The notes below the pieces were generated by a model. That model saw only the letters and a list, made by a program, of their open reading frames with translations. It was not told the origin of the DNA and did no database searches. Below are positions 34,958 through 44,230 of a stretch of DNA of 64,000 nucleotides, piece by piece. A program made the translations under genes and the position numbers. This stretch comes from a bacterium (GTDB lineage Bacteria; AUK180), in the NCBI GenBank assembly GCA_023144005.1, contig JAGLGN010000006.1, positions 124,001 to 188,000 of the forward strand, given 5' to 3'. Position 1 is the first letter of the stretch, and the number at the start of each line of letters is the position of its first letter.

Positions 34958-35860
34958 CTACAATCTCTGAAATCGCTCTGTAACAATCTGAATTAATTTC
35001 TCTTTATATTCGGGATTTAACTGAGAATCATCGATCTGATCAATAATTAATTGTTTCTTTGCCGTCATATTGTTCATTACTTTTTCAGGAATACTAAATT
35101 TATCGGAAAAGGCGGCGAAATCGGTAAGCTGAATATTATTTTTCTTGCCATTCAATGCCAGGGCCAGATCCTCTTCGCGCGGGATCACTAATTTTGATGA
35201 AACAATATCATATGCGGGAGATAATCGTATATTATTCATGTCTGTATAGATTACTGAATAATTCTTCAAATGCGCGTCACCGTTTCCGATTATAAAAGAA
35301 AATAGGACTCTTTCAAAGAGGTATTGAATGTCCAGGGCCGGTATTTCCGAGATCTCATTCAGCTTATTGGCTATCTGCTCCACCGATCCCGTATATTTGT
35401 CCTTTTTGGATTTTCCTAGAATCTGACAGAAATCTTCCTGATTGATCTTTCTGTTATTTTCACGGTCGAATCTCTTTACAATATAGGCATAGGAATCATC
35501 CTTCAATTTCATTAAAGCATGGGAAGGAATATCTATTCCGAGAAGTTCGGCTATTGTCATACAGAGATTTTCATTTTCAGGGATCTGATCATAAACCCGG
35601 CTTTGCGGCTTTAAAATATATTCTCCACCTTCTGTAACGGACATTAATTTCTTTGATCTTTTGTTCAATTTCATTGAAAGTTTTGGTTGAACTCCCGAAA
35701 TTGACAACTTACCCGCCATCTCCTGAGCTTTAATGGTTATTTCACTTAAAGCCAGATCAATACCGGGGATATAACTGACTCCAAAGAGTCTATTTATGCA
35801 GGATTTGTGCATTGCCTGATCTGTATTGAGTGGTTTTCCGCATACCGGACATCTGTTCAT
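34958..35860 (-). CDS. hipT: HipT-like serine/threonine kinase toxin
   Basis: A 300-residue HipA-fold kinase lacking the HipA N-subdomain, which is a separate gene upstream. It starts with a C-x2-C-x10-H-x2-C zinc-type motif (MNRCPVCGKPL, HKSC), then the Gly-rich loop KLSISGVQPKLSM. The SIS motif matches the dual autophosphorylation serines described in HipT. Catalytic block FIIGNGDAHLKNYSV and metal aspartate LSPAYDIVSS are intact. HipT of E. coli phosphorylates TrpS; the target here is unknown. ATG 35860 with GAGGAG overlaps the hipS stop as ATGA. Confidence 0.88.
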   Translation of the reverse strand: MNRCPVCGKPLNTDQAMHKSCINRLFGVSYIPGIDLALSEITIKAQEMAGKLSISGVQPKLSMKLNKRSKKLMSVTEGGEYILKPQSRVYDQIPENENLCMTIAELLGIDIPSHALMKLKDDSYAYIVKRFDRENNRKINQEDFCQILGKSKKDKYTGSVEQIANKLNEISEIPALDIQYLFERVLFSFIIGNGDAHLKNYSVIYTDMNNIRLSPAYDIVSSKLVIPREEDLALALNGKKNNIQLTDFAAFSDKFSIPEKVMNNMTAKKQLIIDQIDDSQLNPEYKEKLIQIVTERFQRL

Positions 35861-36180
35861 AGGAGCTCCTCTACCGATATGGAGCCAATGGTTTCCCGGC
35901 ATGTTGAAAGGAGTATTCCAAAATCATCATCCTTGTCTATTTTCAATGTAGAAGACACTACTTCAAGATACCAACCCTCCGGAAGCAGTCCCTGAAAGAA
36001 GGGGAATAATTCATCGTCCTCATAAGGCGCTTTCCTTAACGGTAATGAAATTGAGATCGGCACATTTTCTTGAATGAATTCCTTTTCATATGTGAATTTA
36101 TACCCACCTTCTGTCTCTTCCAAGATACCCGCTTTTTGTTCATTTGAGTAAATCACTGCTTTTCTAAAATCACTTCTCAT
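35857..36180 (-). CDS. hipS: HipS-like protein (free HipA N-terminal subdomain)
   Basis: A 107-residue protein equal to the HipA_N/couple domain: KAVIYSNEQKAGILEE, FTYEKEFIQENVPISISLPLRKAPYEDDELFPFFQGLLPEGWYLE. In HipBST systems the corresponding small protein is the antitoxin that neutralises the HipT kinase. ATG 36180 overlaps hipB by 11 bases; a TTG at 36195 is less likely. Confidence 0.88.
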   Translation of the reverse strand: MRSDFRKAVIYSNEQKAGILEETEGGYKFTYEKEFIQENVPISISLPLRKAPYEDDELFPFFQGLLPEGWYLEVVSSTLKIDKDDDFGILLSTCRETIGSISVEELL

Positions 36181-36370
36181 CTTTGATAATCTCAATATGA
36201 TGTCCGAAAAACCGCAGAACCTGATTCAGCTTATCAAGCCGTATAGTTGCTTTGTTATTTTCCAGCTCTCGGATAAATCTTAGGCCTACACCGGCTCTTT
36301 CCGACAATTCAACTTGCGTTAAATCATATTTCTTTCTTAGTTCTTTAATTCTTTTACCAATATTGTTCAT
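36170..36370 (-). CDS. hipB: HipB-like XRE-family DNA-binding protein
   Basis: A 66-residue helix-turn-helix protein, IGKRIKELRKKYDLTQVELSERAGVGLRFIRELENNKATIRLDKLNQVLRFFG, which is the HipB type. It heads hipBST, presumably autorepresses through the repeats at 36391-36536, and has an AAAGGT ribosome site. Confidence 0.92.
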   Translation of the reverse strand: MNNIGKRIKELRKKYDLTQVELSERAGVGLRFIRELENNKATIRLDKLNQVLRFFGHHIEIIKDEK

Positions 36371-36906: not shown

Positions 36907-38181
36907 ATGAATATCGGTATTATTATTGGAAGGATTGGTGATGTTGATGGGGTTGCTCTAGAAACAGAAAAATGGATACAAGTTCTCAAAGGAATGGGGC
37001 ATAGGATATTTATTATGTCGGGACGATATGCAAGACATATCGTCGAACCGGAAGATGAAACACTTGTCCAGATGCTTTCTTTCTTTTCACCTGAATGTGA
37101 ATGGGAACAAAAAAGAGCATTTTTTCTTCCGAGATTTGAAGATCTTGATGAGCTTCTTGATCAACTTGAATATTCCTCCAACAGAATTGCTGTTTATATT
37201 TTCAAATGGATCCTTACCAACAGGATAGACATACTGCTTTCTGAAAATGCCTCCACTCTGCCATGTCATCTTTCGATGGGAATGGGTATCAAAAAAGTTG
37301 TTAAAAATACAGGCCTCAGAATTGTGTGTCACGATCACGATTTTCATTGGGAAAGGGGGGATAGATATAAATCACCGTTTAAAGAAATAAATGATCTTGT
37401 TAACGGTACCTTCCCGCTGCTTTCTCCAAATGCCTCCCACGCGGTAATAAATACTTATTCAAAAAATACATTGAGGGAAAAATTTGACATCGATGCTACC
37501 CTGGTCCCCAATGTAATGGATTTCAATGAACCTTATGCCGAAATAGATGAATATAACAGGGATATGCTTGATAATATCGGACTGGGAAAGGGGGATATTC
37601 CAATTTTTCAAGCCACCAGAATAGTGAGACGAAAGGGAATCGGAACGGCAATAGAACTTATTGAACGGATTCAGGACACTAAAGTGAAATTGATAATAAC
37701 AGGGACTTATGCCGATGACGAGAGATATGGATATTACAAGGAACTAATGCAGCTTGTAAAAGATAAAAATCTTAATGGCCGTGTATTTTTTTCTCGCAAC
37801 AGAATACTCAGTCATAGAACTCAGTCGCACACGGGGAAAAAAATATATTCCCTGTCAGATGCTTATGCTCATGCGATAGCCTGCACATATTTCAGCAAAT
37901 ATGAAGGATTTGGAAACGCATTTATCGAGGCGGTACTTGCGAAGCGCCCTGTTTTTGTAAACAATTATAAGCCTGTGTTCTGGCACGACATAGGTTCCAA
38001 GGGTTTTAAAACGGTTATGATCGAGGAAAATAATTTAACAGATGCCGCTGTGGATGAAATCTTTAAAATAATACACAGTAAAAAATTAAGAGGGGAAATT
38101 GCCGAACATAATTACAAACTTGCTCAAAAGTACTTTTCTTATGATGTGCTGGAAGAAAAATTAGCAGAACTATTTTACTGA
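36907..38181 (+). CDS. GT4-type glycosyltransferase
   Basis: A 424-residue GT-B enzyme: N-terminal Rossmann part with IGRIGDVDGVALETEKW (acceptor loop), a CHDHDFHWERGDRY block, then the sugar-nucleotide part with QATRIVRRKGIGTAIELIE, LIITGTY and the E-x7-E-type motif SKYEGFGNAFIEAVLAKRP. Such enzymes move a sugar from a nucleotide donor with retention. The HDF-x-W block recurs in the protein of the next gene (NNHDFYWEGG), so the two glycosyltransferase parts are paralogous. Donor and acceptor are unknown. Confidence 0.85.
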   Translation: MNIGIIIGRIGDVDGVALETEKWIQVLKGMGHRIFIMSGRYARHIVEPEDETLVQMLSFFSPECEWEQKRAFFLPRFEDLDELLDQLEYSSNRIAVYIFKWILTNRIDILLSENASTLPCHLSMGMGIKKVVKNTGLRIVCHDHDFHWERGDRYKSPFKEINDLVNGTFPLLSPNASHAVINTYSKNTLREKFDIDATLVPNVMDFNEPYAEIDEYNRDMLDNIGLGKGDIPIFQATRIVRRKGIGTAIELIERIQDTKVKLIITGTYADDERYGYYKELMQLVKDKNLNGRVFFSRNRILSHRTQSHTGKKIYSLSDAYAHAIACTYFSKYEGFGNAFIEAVLAKRPVFVNNYKPVFWHDIGSKGFKTVMIEENNLTDAAVDEIFKIIHSKKLRGEIAEHNYKLAQKYFSYDVLEEKLAELFY

Positions 38182-38476: not shown

Positions 38477-41400
38477 ATGAAAAGCGCAAAGGAAATGATG
38501 TTTTCTCTCAGGTCAGAAAAGATAGAAACATGGTTTGATTTAGGACTCTATATAGACAGGATACGAGAAAGCAGAGATACACCGCAAACAGAAGGTTTTA
38601 ATGATTTTGAGAGATTTACGGAGTTTGTTGCCGGGGGCATTGCATTTATCACCTTCGATCTTTCAGTCGACGGTGTTTCCACTGAGATCGGGAAATATGC
38701 AAAATCCTTCAGGAAAATTATTAAAGATGTACCGGTGCATTTTATCCTCGGTAAACTCAGCAATAGGGTAGGAAAAGATATTATAGACCCGTCCTATAAA
38801 ATATTCGAGGTTCCTGAAATTGTTGGATTCAGTAAATGGAAACATTATAATGATTTTTTTCACACAGACCTTGAACGGGGGAGTGAGTCTTATAATAGTC
38901 TGATTTTGAATTTCTGGGATGAGGTTTTGAGTATAACAGAGAAATTGGGAAAGTATATTGAAGAAAATGATATAAGATTACTATTTTTAATCAATGCTTG
39001 TTCAAATCCCGGAAATGTATCCCTCGCGCTTGCAATGGTATTTATTTCCGAGTTTATGGGTCTACCCGTCATAAACAATAATCATGACTTCTATTGGGAG
39101 GGGGGCAACAGCAGAATCGATATTGCAACTCAAAATCTAAACCCCGGACCAAGAGACCATTTTTTCCATAATTCACATATTGGGGAATTTTTTTCCCTGA
39201 TTGAAGTTCTTTATACCTGGGAATCCCGTTCATGGCTGCAGATCAATATTAATAATTTTCAATCCCAACAACTTATTGAAAGGTACGGTCATAATCCAGC
39301 AAATATAACGGAGATAGGAACGGCAATAGATTTTAAATATTATAGCGGCATAGAAAACGGAAGGATACTGGATATATATAAACAATTATTTGATATTTTT
39401 AGGAGTAAAAAGAAATATATCAATCCTCTTACTGCCAAAGAAGTAATTTCAAGAGAATTAATGTCAAAGGAAAATCCATTGCCCGTTTTCATAGGCAGGC
39501 GTAGGACCCTGTCATTAAAGGAAATAATTAATGATAATTTTATTTTTGTCCAACCGACCAGAATAGTAGCACGGAAAAAAATAGAGGTCAATTTTATTTT
39601 AATAAAGAAATTATTTGAAAACAAAGAATTTTCAAGATGCTTTGACAATAATCGACAGTTGAAATTAACTCTTTTAATAACCGGACCAATTGCGGGGGGG
39701 CATACCGAATATGCCGAAAGGCTTACTTGTTTGTTTTCCGAAATGCTGTCTAAAATGGATTCCCGTTATCGAAATAGAATATTTCTAGGATTTATTTTCA
39801 GTGAATTTGATCATCCTAATTTCAAAGGTCGATATGAAAAACCGATTTCAATACCGGAACTGTACAATATTGCATCACTTGTTCTGCTACCAAGTGAAAC
39901 AGAAGGCCGTGGTCTGCCCATTATTGAGTCATCTGCCTGCGGGACACCTATTTTTGTTCGCAGGTATTACCCTGAGCATGTGTATTCCGCAGTGATTGGA
40001 GAACACCTTTCAATAGAAGAGCGTTTGAAAGTAATCGAGTTTAATAATGATAATATAGGAACGGAAATTATCGACAAGGTTGCAGATCATGTACTTCATC
40101 CCCAGGATTATATGATAGAAGCAGCTGAAAATAAACAAGTGGTCCGGAACAGATATACGCTCAACTCAATGAAAAACGATATCAGGAATGCGTTATATAA
40201 ATTATTTCTTCAACTTTGTGATAATTCAGATAGCATGGGGCTTGCAATCTGGGCTTTAGAACAACATAACCATATTACCGAAAAAGATAATCTGGACTTG
40301 GAGAAAATACTGGATACCAATAATCGCCAATATTTGCCCGGATATGGGAAGATGCGGTTTATGATATTTCTCAAGTCGTTAATAGACCCAAGCTATTTCC
40401 GAGTAGAAGAACAGCGGTTCAAAGGGATGGCAATGAAATTCGCAAGCAATCTTGTTCAATACAATCCAGACCCCACACCTCTTTCCCAGGAAAAAAAACA
40501 CAAATTCTTTAACGCTGTGAATGATATATTTCTGTATAGAAAAGGTGATGTCCCCATAAGAATTGACCATTCCTTTAATTATAGACATCGAAACAAAAAG
40601 CATTATCCGTACAGGGACCTTACCTTTCAGGAGCTCACGGGGGTAATAACCATACTTTTTAATAAAATCGCATCTCCGCCCCCATATATAGAATTCAGGA
40701 ATGAAGTCAGGCATTTAATTAATTTTAATCAGGCGATCCTTCAACTCACGAACAGCTCCGAACTTGCTATAGATCATAGAAAAAGATTAAAAGGAAGACT
40801 TGAAGAGAATGTCCCGGTAGCATTATTCCCCGGGAATTATATAAATTACGAAATGGAGTTTTTTGTTCTTCAACCTATCCGTAAGCGGCTTGGGTTGATG
40901 GCGGAAGAGGAACTTACCGCTCAAATTCTTGAGTTAGCTGAAGATCTCGCTCCGATATACGTAATAAAACATAATGTCCCTATTGGACTTTCGATAACTG
41001 CCGATGCGTTAAAAAGCTATATTTCAAGTTCTGATAATTCAGAGATGAAACTTCTATTCGAATACGGGGTATGTAAAATAATTAAGAGTAATCAGGTAAC
41101 GGTGGGAGTCCATTTTGAACAGCTTGGAAAGGAAGCTTTAAGAGCTTTAAGAGATGTAAAAGAGGGAAGTGGCTTTATTATCGCGAGTGGAGACCATTCC
41201 GCAATGATGACCGATCTTGTAAATATCGAAACATTTCATATTGGAAGAGCAACAAAAATATTAGCTTCAAAGATAATGGGGATCCCGGTTGGAAGCGGCT
41301 ATCTTAATTGGGTGCCCGCCGGTCTGAGAAGTTGTCTTTCTTACCCCACTCCGGTGCAGACTTCTAGGGATTTCAGCGCGGCGCTGAAGAGCTCTGTTTT

Positions 41401-42649
41401 CAAAAGACTCTCTAAGAAATACGGTGAAGAGAAGATACTTGAAATTCTTAAGAAAGATGCCTCAACAAAGGGTTCCCCTGTAATGGATGTTTTAAACTCT
41501 CTTGTTTCGGATAAAGTATCAAATAAAGGTATTTCAACATCTCAAATCATGGGGATTTACAAGGACGGTCTGCCTTGGGCAGGTGCGATGGCAAGGGTTG
41601 CGATAAAGGACAGCCGAAGACAATGGAATTTTAGTATTCAGGCCCGCGAGAACAATGAGACCATAACGGTACCGGAATTTTGCCGGGATTTTTATAAGAA
41701 GACCGGAAAGAAGCCTAATATTGCATGGAACGGCGGTTATATACTGAATTCCGAGCTTGTCGGCAAACTTGGCATTTCGGCATCGTATATTGGTTCCTCA
41801 CTCGGTCTAGTTATAACAGAGAAAAAGATAGTATCTCCGCCACTCTTCAATAAACCCGCATTTGGTATCTTTTCCAACGGCACATTGAAAATTGAGCGGG
41901 TAAATTGTTCTGAAGGAATTACCATTGTTGATACGAACAAGGAGATCGTTATTACAAAAGATCATTACAACATCTCCGATCCTGAAGACAAACCCTGTTT
42001 CTATGACCTTATGTATCCAGATGAATATATCAATGGCAACGGCCATGTAATTTTCCGTTTTTCCCGAAATGTTATCAAAGAAATAATTCATACAAAAAAG
42101 GGAGAAAAAATTAAACTGTTGCCAGTGGGTCTCACCTTCTCATTTCCAAAACGATTAGTACCCGAGAGCTGGGATAGAATCGAAAAAGAGGCTATTTTCA
42201 AACTTCACTTCTGGAATGATGTTAAACACGCGCTTGAAGCCGGACCCATGCTTGTAGAGAACGGTAGGGTTTGTATAGATATGGAGTTGGAGGGATGGAA
42301 AACCACGAATTCCATTAGTACACAAGCCAGCAGACTTGATTATCTTGATATGCGTGGCCCTAAAATAGCGGTTGGACTTGATATAGACGGAAATCTTATT
42401 GTCTTAACAGTAAATGGCAGAATAAGGGAATCGGTAGGCGCGACACATATAGATATGGCGGAAATTCTTTTATCAAAGGGAATAGTGACAGGTATGGGGT
42501 TTGACCCGGGCGGCAGCAGTACACTTGTAGTACATAATAAGATCCTGAATATTTCTCCGTATAATCATAAATATGAGAACGATATATATACCCTTCCACC
42601 GGAACCCAGAGCGGTATCAAATGTGGTGATCGGTTATTCAAGTAAGTAA
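38477..42649 (+). CDS. Three-part enzyme: GT4 glycosyltransferase, unknown middle part, phosphodiester glycosidase-like end
   Basis: A 1390-residue cytoplasmic-looking protein (no signal, no membrane segment). Residues 1-600: GT-B glycosyltransferase with NNHDFYWEGG, FVQPTRIVARKKI (about 355) and PSETEGRGLPIIESSACGTP (about 475). Residues about 600-1070: unrecognised, with SGFIIASGDHSAMM and GIPVGSGYLNWVPAG. Residues about 1075-1390: NAGPA-like phosphodiester glycosidase fold (IAWNGGYILN, LEAGPMLVENG, GMGFDPGGSSTLVV). NAGPA-type domains remove GlcNAc from a phosphodiester. The fusion suggests making and trimming of one glycan, but the product is unknown. AGGGAGGT precedes ATG 38477. Confidence 0.75.
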   Translation: MKSAKEMMFSLRSEKIETWFDLGLYIDRIRESRDTPQTEGFNDFERFTEFVAGGIAFITFDLSVDGVSTEIGKYAKSFRKIIKDVPVHFILGKLSNRVGKDIIDPSYKIFEVPEIVGFSKWKHYNDFFHTDLERGSESYNSLILNFWDEVLSITEKLGKYIEENDIRLLFLINACSNPGNVSLALAMVFISEFMGLPVINNNHDFYWEGGNSRIDIATQNLNPGPRDHFFHNSHIGEFFSLIEVLYTWESRSWLQININNFQSQQLIERYGHNPANITEIGTAIDFKYYSGIENGRILDIYKQLFDIFRSKKKYINPLTAKEVISRELMSKENPLPVFIGRRRTLSLKEIINDNFIFVQPTRIVARKKIEVNFILIKKLFENKEFSRCFDNNRQLKLTLLITGPIAGGHTEYAERLTCLFSEMLSKMDSRYRNRIFLGFIFSEFDHPNFKGRYEKPISIPELYNIASLVLLPSETEGRGLPIIESSACGTPIFVRRYYPEHVYSAVIGEHLSIEERLKVIEFNNDNIGTEIIDKVADHVLHPQDYMIEAAENKQVVRNRYTLNSMKNDIRNALYKLFLQLCDNSDSMGLAIWALEQHNHITEKDNLDLEKILDTNNRQYLPGYGKMRFMIFLKSLIDPSYFRVEEQRFKGMAMKFASNLVQYNPDPTPLSQEKKHKFFNAVNDIFLYRKGDVPIRIDHSFNYRHRNKKHYPYRDLTFQELTGVITILFNKIASPPPYIEFRNEVRHLINFNQAILQLTNSSELAIDHRKRLKGRLEENVPVALFPGNYINYEMEFFVLQPIRKRLGLMAEEELTAQILELAEDLAPIYVIKHNVPIGLSITADALKSYISSSDNSEMKLLFEYGVCKIIKSNQVTVGVHFEQLGKEALRALRDVKEGSGFIIASGDHSAMMTDLVNIETFHIGRATKILASKIMGIPVGSGYLNWVPAGLRSCLSYPTPVQTSRDFSAALKSSVFKRLSKKYGEEKILEILKKDASTKGSPVMDVLNSLVSDKVSNKGISTSQIMGIYKDGLPWAGAMARVAIKDSRRQWNFSIQARENNETITVPEFCRDFYKKTGKKPNIAWNGGYILNSELVGKLGISASYIGSSLGLVITEKKIVSPPLFNKPAFGIFSNGTLKIERVNCSEGITIVDTNKEIVITKDHYNISDPEDKPCFYDLMYPDEYINGNGHVIFRFSRNVIKEIIHTKKGEKIKLLPVGLTFSFPKRLVPESWDRIEKEAIFKLHFWNDVKHALEAGPMLVENGRVCIDMELEGWKTTNSISTQASRLDYLDMRGPKIAVGLDIDGNLIVLTVNGRIRESVGATHIDMAEILLSKGIVTGMGFDPGGSSTLVVHNKILNISPYNHKYENDIYTLPPEPRAVSNVVIGYSSK

Positions 42650-42730: not shown

Positions 42731-44230
42731 ATGACCGACAAAGTTGTCCTTATGCTGAGTTTCGGTGGATATCTTACATTTATTCTCATTATCGGGATCA
42801 TTGCATCCAAGTTCAATAAAACACTTTCTGATTTTTTACTAGGCGGCAGAAAGCTCGGACCGTGGCTGCTCTCCATCTCCGAAAGGGCATCAGGAGAGAG
42901 CGCCTGGCTGATCGTCGGGTTTACGGGAACGGCTTTCGCCATGGGTCTGAAGGCGATCTGGATCGCGCTCGGATGCGCGCTCGGGATCATATTCAATTGG
43001 CTCTTCATCGCTAAAAAACTCAGAGAGGCGGGAGGGAAATACGATTCCCTTACGATTCCCGATTATTTAGCGGAGCGCTACGGGGATAAGAGGCACATTC
43101 TACGCATCACATCTGCGGTAATGATCCTGATCTTCTATGTTCTTTATGTGTCAGGACAGTTCATGGGTACTCAGAAGATACTTGAGGTGGCATTTAACAT
43201 ACCGCCGACCACCGGAATACTTATAGGTGCGGCGATCATTATCTTTTATACCGCGCTGGGCGGATTTATGGCGGTGGTATGGACTGATTTCTTTCAGGGA
43301 CTTATTATGCTTGCAGCACTCGTTCTGCTCCCGATCCTCGGACTGATCAAACTGGGGGGATTCGGCGCCGCGATCGAGATGATCCGGGCGGCAAGAGGGC
43401 CCGAAGCGGCAGGGCTCTTTTATTCCGGCAATTTCTGGCAATCTGTAGCTCTTGTGATATCCGGCCTCGGATGGGGACTCGGATATATGGGACAGCCGCA
43501 TCTTCTGGTGAGATTTATGGCATTTGATGATACAAAGAACATAAAAAAGGGAGCCACGATTGCGATCATATGGACCGTGCTCGCATATACCGGTGCGGTG
43601 ATAATAGGGATAATCGGACTGGCGGCGCTGAAAGGAAGTCTTGAGAACGGAACGCTTTTCGGGGCGGTGATCACGGACAAGGAACATGTGATGCCAATGC
43701 TTGCATTGAAACTTGTGCCGGCGTTCCTAGCGGGGATATTCATTTCCGGCGCGATTGCCGCTATGATGTCTACCGCCGACTCCCAGTTGCTCGTATGTAC
43801 CTCAACGGTCACCGAGGATTATCTGATCAAGGTGAAAAAGAAAGACCTCAGCAATAAGCAAATGGTCAGGATCAGCAGAATAGTGACCGTAGTGCTTGGC
43901 GTCATTGCTCTTGTGTTCGGTATGCTGGGAAGCAAGGTCTTTGACCAGGTACTGCACGCGTGGGCCGGGCTGGGCGCGACCATAGGCGTAACAATGCTTC
44001 TGTCCATTTACTGGAAAAGGTCAAATCTGAACGGAGCTCTCTGGGGTATGATCACCGGATTTTCCGTTGTCGTGATATGGAACGCGATAAAAATACTGAC
44101 TCATCTTGAGGGTGTACCGAAATTCTTTGTTTACAGCTTTGACAATGAGATAGTGCCTGCGTTCATACTTGCGGTTGCCGTCCATATGATAGTTTCGATA
44201 GCAACAAAAAAAACAGAGGTTAGAGGGTAG
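42731..44230 (+). CDS. Sodium/solute symporter, PutP-like
   Basis: A 499-residue protein of the SSS family with about 13 membrane segments. Family marks: SDFLLGGRKLGPWLLSISERASGESAWL, FYTALGGFMAVVWTDFFQG, SGAIAAMMSTADSQLLVCTSTVTED. The closest general match is Na+/proline permease; the substrate is not proven. It stands alone after the glycosyltransferase region. Confidence 0.9.
   Translation: MTDKVVLMLSFGGYLTFILIIGIIASKFNKTLSDFLLGGRKLGPWLLSISERASGESAWLIVGFTGTAFAMGLKAIWIALGCALGIIFNWLFIAKKLREAGGKYDSLTIPDYLAERYGDKRHILRITSAVMILIFYVLYVSGQFMGTQKILEVAFNIPPTTGILIGAAIIIFYTALGGFMAVVWTDFFQGLIMLAALVLLPILGLIKLGGFGAAIEMIRAARGPEAAGLFYSGNFWQSVALVISGLGWGLGYMGQPHLLVRFMAFDDTKNIKKGATIAIIWTVLAYTGAVIIGIIGLAALKGSLENGTLFGAVITDKEHVMPMLALKLVPAFLAGIFISGAIAAMMSTADSQLLVCTSTVTEDYLIKVKKKDLSNKQMVRISRIVTVVLGVIALVFGMLGSKVFDQVLHAWAGLGATIGVTMLLSIYWKRSNLNGALWGMITGFSVVVIWNAIKILTHLEGVPKFFVYSFDNEIVPAFILAVAVHMIVSIATKKTEVRG

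Follow-up and report, generated by a model that had tools for sequence, protein, structure and literature searches.

What does a bacterium make with a single protein chain that, judging from the families of its two ends, would both add a sugar and cleave a sugar phosphodiester? The question is raised by an open reading frame (ORF) at positions 38477 to 42649, on the plus strand, of a 64,000-nucleotide stretch of bacterial DNA (positions 124,001 to 188,000 of contig JAGLGN010000006.1, GenBank assembly GCA_023144005.1; GTDB lineage AUK180), here called the window. Comparative evidence indicates that the encoded fusion protein and a small glycosyltransferase (GT) encoded just upstream of it probably form an undescribed sugar-making pathway, because the fusion occurs across many phyla, almost always accompanied by the small GT. 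This reading is based on architecture, folds, conservation, co-occurrence, and co-loss; the chemistry, donor, acceptor, and product of the pathway we infer.

Architecture of the fusion protein

The ORF starts with ATG and is an intact frame without internal stops (the coordinates include the stop codon). Across the full length, the protein is 97% identical to its orthologue in the same genus, 72 to 73% identical to those in the same family (one copy in this class is divided between two contigs), and 48 to 52% identical to orthologues of equal length in other phyla. A first-pass annotation of the window had described a three-part fusion of 1390 residues, and that layout is what we found. The features, including the partner gene, are as follows.

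38477 to 42649, plus strand: fusion protein GT4–DUF89 fold–NAGPA, 1390 residues
38477 to 40186, plus strand: GT4 (GT-B) glycosyltransferase part, residues 1 to 570; R366/K367 and E476-x7-E484 invariant in 43 sequences
40199 to 41518, plus strand: middle domain, residues 575 to 1014; predicted DUF89/ARMT1 phosphatase fold, best match at about residues 604 to 969; catalytic aspartates replaced (G786, S839)
41525 to 42646, plus strand: NAGPA (phosphodiester glycosidase) domain, residues 1017 to 1390; AWNGGY, EAGP, and FDPGGS kept; usual Arg is Lys1296
36907 to 38181, plus strand: partner GT4 of 424 residues, paralogous to the GT part of the fusion; nearest named model NF041101, 219 bits against a cut-off of 640

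Both ends were recognized by Pfam. Glycos_transf_1 (PF00534) matched residues 456 to 498 with 30.4 bits (cut-off, 26.4), and the four donor-site residues listed above were the same in every full-length sequence compared. NAGPA (PF09992) matched residues 1237 to 1383 with 60.8 bits (cut-off, 25), and the NAGPA fold extends from about residue 1017 to the C terminus, with Z scores of 27.1 to 3ohg and 26.5 to 6pku. Thus, the first-pass identification of a GT4 part and a phosphodiester-glycosidase part holds. The GT4 residues are present, and most of the NAGPA motifs are, with one conservative Arg-to-Lys change. Because the NAGPA fold begins near residue 1017, and not near 1070 as first thought, the separate middle part is about 440 residues long instead of 470. 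The only evidence for a cytoplasmic location, also claimed earlier, is that the chain has no convincing signal peptide or membrane helix; the single 19-residue hydropathy peak (2.05) lies inside the GT fold. Two stand-alone NAGPA-like proteins (L135 and L136) were also inspected; the former, a relative of the domain in a Bacteroidales-type genome (L135:1501-2595), no longer has the NAGPA motifs and escapes recognition by Pfam.

The middle part had been said to match nothing. This was true of sequence: searches of Pfam and the PDB with the middle part gave nothing credible, and PF01937 (DUF89), tried on 31 middle domains, matched none with an E value up to 1. It was not true of structure. A fold predicted from six sequences had a mean predicted local distance difference test score (pLDDT) of 47 and was set aside for an AlphaFold model of residues 575 to 1390 based on 97 homologues, which had a pLDDT of 90.6 and a predicted template modeling score of 0.88. 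When the middle domain of this model was compared by VIA-align with DUF89/ARMT1 structures, Z was 21.5 for 1xfi (289 residues aligned, 3.6 Å), 19.6 for 2g8l (245 residues, 3.0 Å), and 18.1 for 2ffj; other DUF89 entries, mostly fungal, gave 12.8 to 15.3, and the best unrelated entry gave 6.6. Foldseek also matched the middle domain to DUF89/ARMT1 (E = 3.7e-9). A DUF89 alignment built from 18 PF01937 proteins matched the middle domain in hhalign with an E value of 4.7e-6 (probability, 86%), and the reverse run gave the same register (E = 4.8e-4; 32%). The middle domain is neither a known GT accessory domain nor a known glycosidase accessory domain.

In PANK4, both DUF89 aspartates, those of the DN..E and ND motifs, are essential (PMC9352595). 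In the register, which rests on profile alignment, the first falls on Gly786 (Gly in 93 of 97 sequences) and the second on position 839, which is Trp, Ser, Gln, or Asn. The KGQGN and AKC motifs of DUF89 are also lost. Because both catalytic aspartates are replaced family-wide, the domain modeled here is, by its predicted fold, a pseudophosphatase or a retooled phosphatase: it has the DUF89 fold and falls outside the catalytic definition of the family. We considered GDHSAMMTD as a DUF89 DNxGE..D motif and rejected it, since the profile alignment places that motif at residues 784 to 794 (FPGNY...); SGDHSAMM lies opposite KGQGN. For the most conserved stretches of the middle domain, KSLIDPS(Y/F)FRxEE and YRHRNK, no DUF89 counterpart was identified. 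One homologue (L117:1-3750, genome G440) has an in-frame gap in this domain, with about residues 374 to 443 of the 511-residue query gone, possibly by an assembly fault.

Distribution and the partner glycosyltransferase

Scanning GTDB genomes with the middle part gave 92 relatives; we retained 80 loci. The genomes carry the labels of about 16 phyla, but labels of metagenome-assembled genomes (MAGs) are possibly wrong, and two copies labeled DPANN are doubtful. The hosts are chiefly Bacteroidota; others are Calditrichota, Chloroflexota, Myxococcota, Desulfobacterales, Planctomycetota, Gemmatimonadota, WOR-3, KSB1, Fermentibacteria, and still others. Five host genomes without a MAG label are Marinifilum, a genus with cultured species. 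The genome survey proposed in the first-pass annotation thus found that the fusion recurs: all three parts were present in 60 of 62 complete middle-domain ORFs, the exceptions being L108, whose frame is broken, and L110, in which the gene is divided into a GT and a middle-NAGPA part.

Identity between distant groups is 39 to 53%. In the tree, Bacteroidota sequences largely cluster (4 changes versus 20.8 with shuffled labels), and synteny around the gene is common to Bacteroidota; because of these two results, old and mostly vertical inheritance fits the data. A mobile-element origin is unsupported, since searches of phage, plasmid, and viral collections found no relative. None of the PADLOC defense models matched. 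The adjoining genes in Bacteroidota, which encode a HemN-like radical SAM protein, Rrf2, RpiB, NadA, VanZ, and RuvB, were rejected as functional partners because they look like ordinary synteny.

Only one neighbor recurs across phyla among the 80 loci, and that is the gene for the small GT, which was inside the examined flank at 47 of them. Residues 63 to 580 of the fusion are homologous to the small GT over 414 columns (hhalign, E = 1.4e-31), so the two are paralogues. At most loci outside the Bacteroidota, the small-GT gene lies directly upstream on the same strand, at distances from a slight overlap to 324 bp where it is single-copy; in most linked Bacteroidales, it is 1 to 4 kb downstream on the opposite strand. 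Calditrichota and KSB1 have two tandem small-GT copies before the fusion gene (L027:7187-9897, L038:332-2990, and L039:3242-6047).

The two genes also occur together in genomes. Among 247 genomes of the Marinifilum order, 13 encode the fusion, and the same 13 encode a small GT scoring >650 bits (next best score, 281 bits). Similarly, in a sample of 386 relatives around the window, the same 6 genomes carry both genes, and the next best small-GT homologue scored 343 bits. If genomes are assumed to be independent, the hypergeometric probabilities of such co-occurrence are 7e-22 and 2e-13, respectively. The genes sit on separate contigs in several Bacteroidota (e.g., C1 and C3 of genome G465), so linkage does not explain the co-occurrence.

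The small GT and part of the GT of the fusion are also missing together in some genomes. In two Chloroflexota copies, L040:52-3393 and L089:1410-3758, the frames are open but the donor half of the GT part, from about residue 288 or 304 to 570, is deleted, and with it the R/K and E-x7-E donor-site residues; the middle and NAGPA parts are kept. No small GT scoring >650 bits is present in either genome or in a third Chloroflexota genome, that of L061, a copy whose contig begins within the middle domain so that its GT part could not be read. Because the donor half and the small GT are lost in the same Chloroflexota genomes, this co-loss, which rests on three draft genomes, ties the GT unit of the fusion to the small GT. 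The same three drafts suggest that the middle and NAGPA parts can work without the GT units.

Possible functions of the two-gene system

We tentatively favor, at somewhat less than even weight, the view that the genes for the small GT and the fusion encode one cytosolic pathway, which synthesizes a glycoside or glycoconjugate that is small and soluble. The small GT and the GT part of the fusion, as paralogous GT4 units, would act sequentially or as a pair to build the product, in the manner of the mannosylglucosylglycerate-synthase (MGGS) and sucrose-phosphate-synthase branch of GT4. The NAGPA domain may hydrolyze an intermediate or the activated donor at a glycosyl-1-phosphodiester bond, thereby finishing or trimming the product. 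Between the catalytic ends, the DUF89-fold domain may bind a phosphorylated intermediate; because its metal-binding aspartates are gone, it would do so either as a pseudophosphatase scaffold or sensor or with a rebuilt active site. The animal NAGPA enzyme is reported to hydrolyze UDP-N-acetylglucosamine (UDP-GlcNAc) as well (PMC12024695), so the NAGPA domain may act on the donor itself.

Several findings weigh against this proposal. Lys1296 replaces the Arg of the R-(T/S)-A-x-G motif of solved NAGPA proteins, and NAGPA activity is therefore not certain. The two Chloroflexota copies have the middle and NAGPA parts but an incomplete GT, so whatever function these copies have does not depend on the GT. 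The genomes within each of our two samples are related, and the hypergeometric values, which assume independence, therefore overstate the co-occurrence. Two DPANN-labeled archaeal MAGs (G717 and G718; loci L043 and L044) encode a full fusion protein but no detected small GT, which may reflect MAG completeness, a binning error, or transfer. Finally, at the 80 loci, only the small GT is consistently linked to the fusion; nucleotide-sugar, phosphatase, and transport genes are not.

It is unlikely, though the best of the alternatives, that the chain is a combined synthase and hydrolase, in which the GT4 part makes a glycoside, the NAGPA part breaks the glycoside or the nucleoside diphosphate sugar, and the middle domain senses a metabolite that sets the balance. 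Catalytic-looking residues at both ends with a ligand-binding fold lacking catalytic aspartates between them would suit such a protein, as would the UDP-GlcNAc hydrolysis just mentioned; however, a biosynthetic series would account as well for the partner GT and for its loss along with the donor half.

Synthesis of a compatible solute, with transfer to a phosphorylated acceptor and removal of the phosphate by a rebuilt DUF89-fold site, seems improbable. A GT4 part precedes a phosphatase fold, as in sucrose-phosphate synthase/phosphatase, and the nearest named model for both GTs, NF041101, is the compatible-solute enzyme MGGS, although the scores (219 bits for the small GT, about 33 bits for the fusion) fall far short of its curated cut-off. 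The cultured hosts belong to Marinifilum, a marine genus. In the window, a PutP-like Na+/solute symporter gene follows the fusion gene (42731 to 44230, same strand, 81 bp past its end; 420 bits, cut-off 515.5) and is also present in the sister genome, but it is not conserved beside the fusion in other genomes. Moreover, both DUF89 catalytic aspartates are replaced. GpgS supplies the known phosphorylating route to mannosylglucosylglycerate, but GpgS (NF010496) exceeded its cut-off of 262 in 0 of 20 fusion-bearing genomes searched, and a plain mannosylglucosylglycerate pathway by this route is not supported.

The first-pass annotation suggested a new glycan or glycolipid pathway. The new-pathway half of this idea is strengthened by the wide conservation and the obligate-looking partner, but a polymer or lipid-linked acceptor in an envelope pathway has little probability. 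Members of both the GT4 and the NAGPA family often occur in cell-surface glycan systems, and a flippase-like Polysacc_synt protein is encoded elsewhere in the window; on the other side, the fusion lacks a membrane segment or signal peptide, and the 80 loci show no recurrent flippase, polymerase, or lipid carrier gene beside the gene pair. Glycosylation of a protein or RNA, with the middle and NAGPA parts binding or editing the target, is very improbable despite the long multidomain chain and its very conserved non-DUF89 motifs (KSLIDPS and YRHRNK), because the nearest GT relatives take small-molecule acceptors and no RNA- or protein-binding domain was found in the fusion.

To return to the cytosolic two-gene pathway, a protein of about 1400 residues that is intact across about 16 phylum labels, with a partner gene, marks a real metabolic function. 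Comparative evidence gives good support to a conserved sugar pathway of two genes. Whether the products of this widespread pathway are a new class of metabolite, small glycosides or sugar phosphodiesters, with a DUF89 fold rebuilt as a new active site or a phosphosugar sensor that joins transferase and phosphodiester glycosidase within a single chain, is in our judgment close to evenly balanced, tilting slightly toward no. Because cultured Marinifilum species carry the fusion, the product can be sought directly.

On the minus strand elsewhere in the window (34958 to 36195) is the gene for a HipA-like kinase that has the C-terminal HipA domain. A short N-terminal ORF stands separately upstream of it; hipA may be split or frame-shifted here.

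Comparison with known systems

The component families have been described before; what is new, with respect to the literature and libraries searched, is how they are combined and that the DUF89 fold among them has lost its catalytic aspartates. Literature searches gave no description of a GT4-DUF89-NAGPA fusion, and none of the family libraries searched names its function.

With the DUF89/ARMT1 phosphatases (PF01937; 1xfi, 2g8l, and 2ffj), the middle domain shares the fold in one consistent profile register, but it lacks their catalytic Asp pair, KGQGN, and AKC, and PF01937 recognizes no member; the fusion is thus an instance of a larger enzyme that contains this phosphatase fold stripped of its catalytic metal site. 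With NAGPA, the uncovering enzyme, and DUF2233 proteins (PF09992; 3ohg, 6pku, and 5h3k), it shares the fold and the NGGY, AGP, and D-x-GG-S motifs. Unlike them, it has this domain behind GT4 and DUF89-fold parts, without a signal peptide and with Lys for Arg, a case of a NAGPA domain apparently placed in the cytosol behind a glycosyltransferase.

MGGS (NF041101), like both GTs here, is a GT4 enzyme with conserved R-K and E-x7-E. A separate clade of MGGS-like GTs (about 250 to 340 bits) occurs in genomes without the fusion. By eye, two from Chloroflexota, where these GTs score 250 to 300 bits (L216:8283-11808 and L219:11-7291), lie beside a GH13-type sugar-phosphorylase-like gene, and the latter locus also holds genes for a GH38-like mannosidase and a GH130-like protein; these are possible mannosylglucosylglycerate clusters, apart from the fusion system.

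The sucrose-phosphate synthase type of GT and phosphatase fusion has, like the protein described here, a GT4 part and then a phosphatase-fold part, and the small-GT profile had a single match in the PDB, 6kih (Tll1590), a sucrose-phosphate-synthase-like GT. In those fusions the phosphatase part has the HAD fold, whereas here it is predicted to be DUF89, without the catalytic aspartates, and a NAGPA domain follows it.

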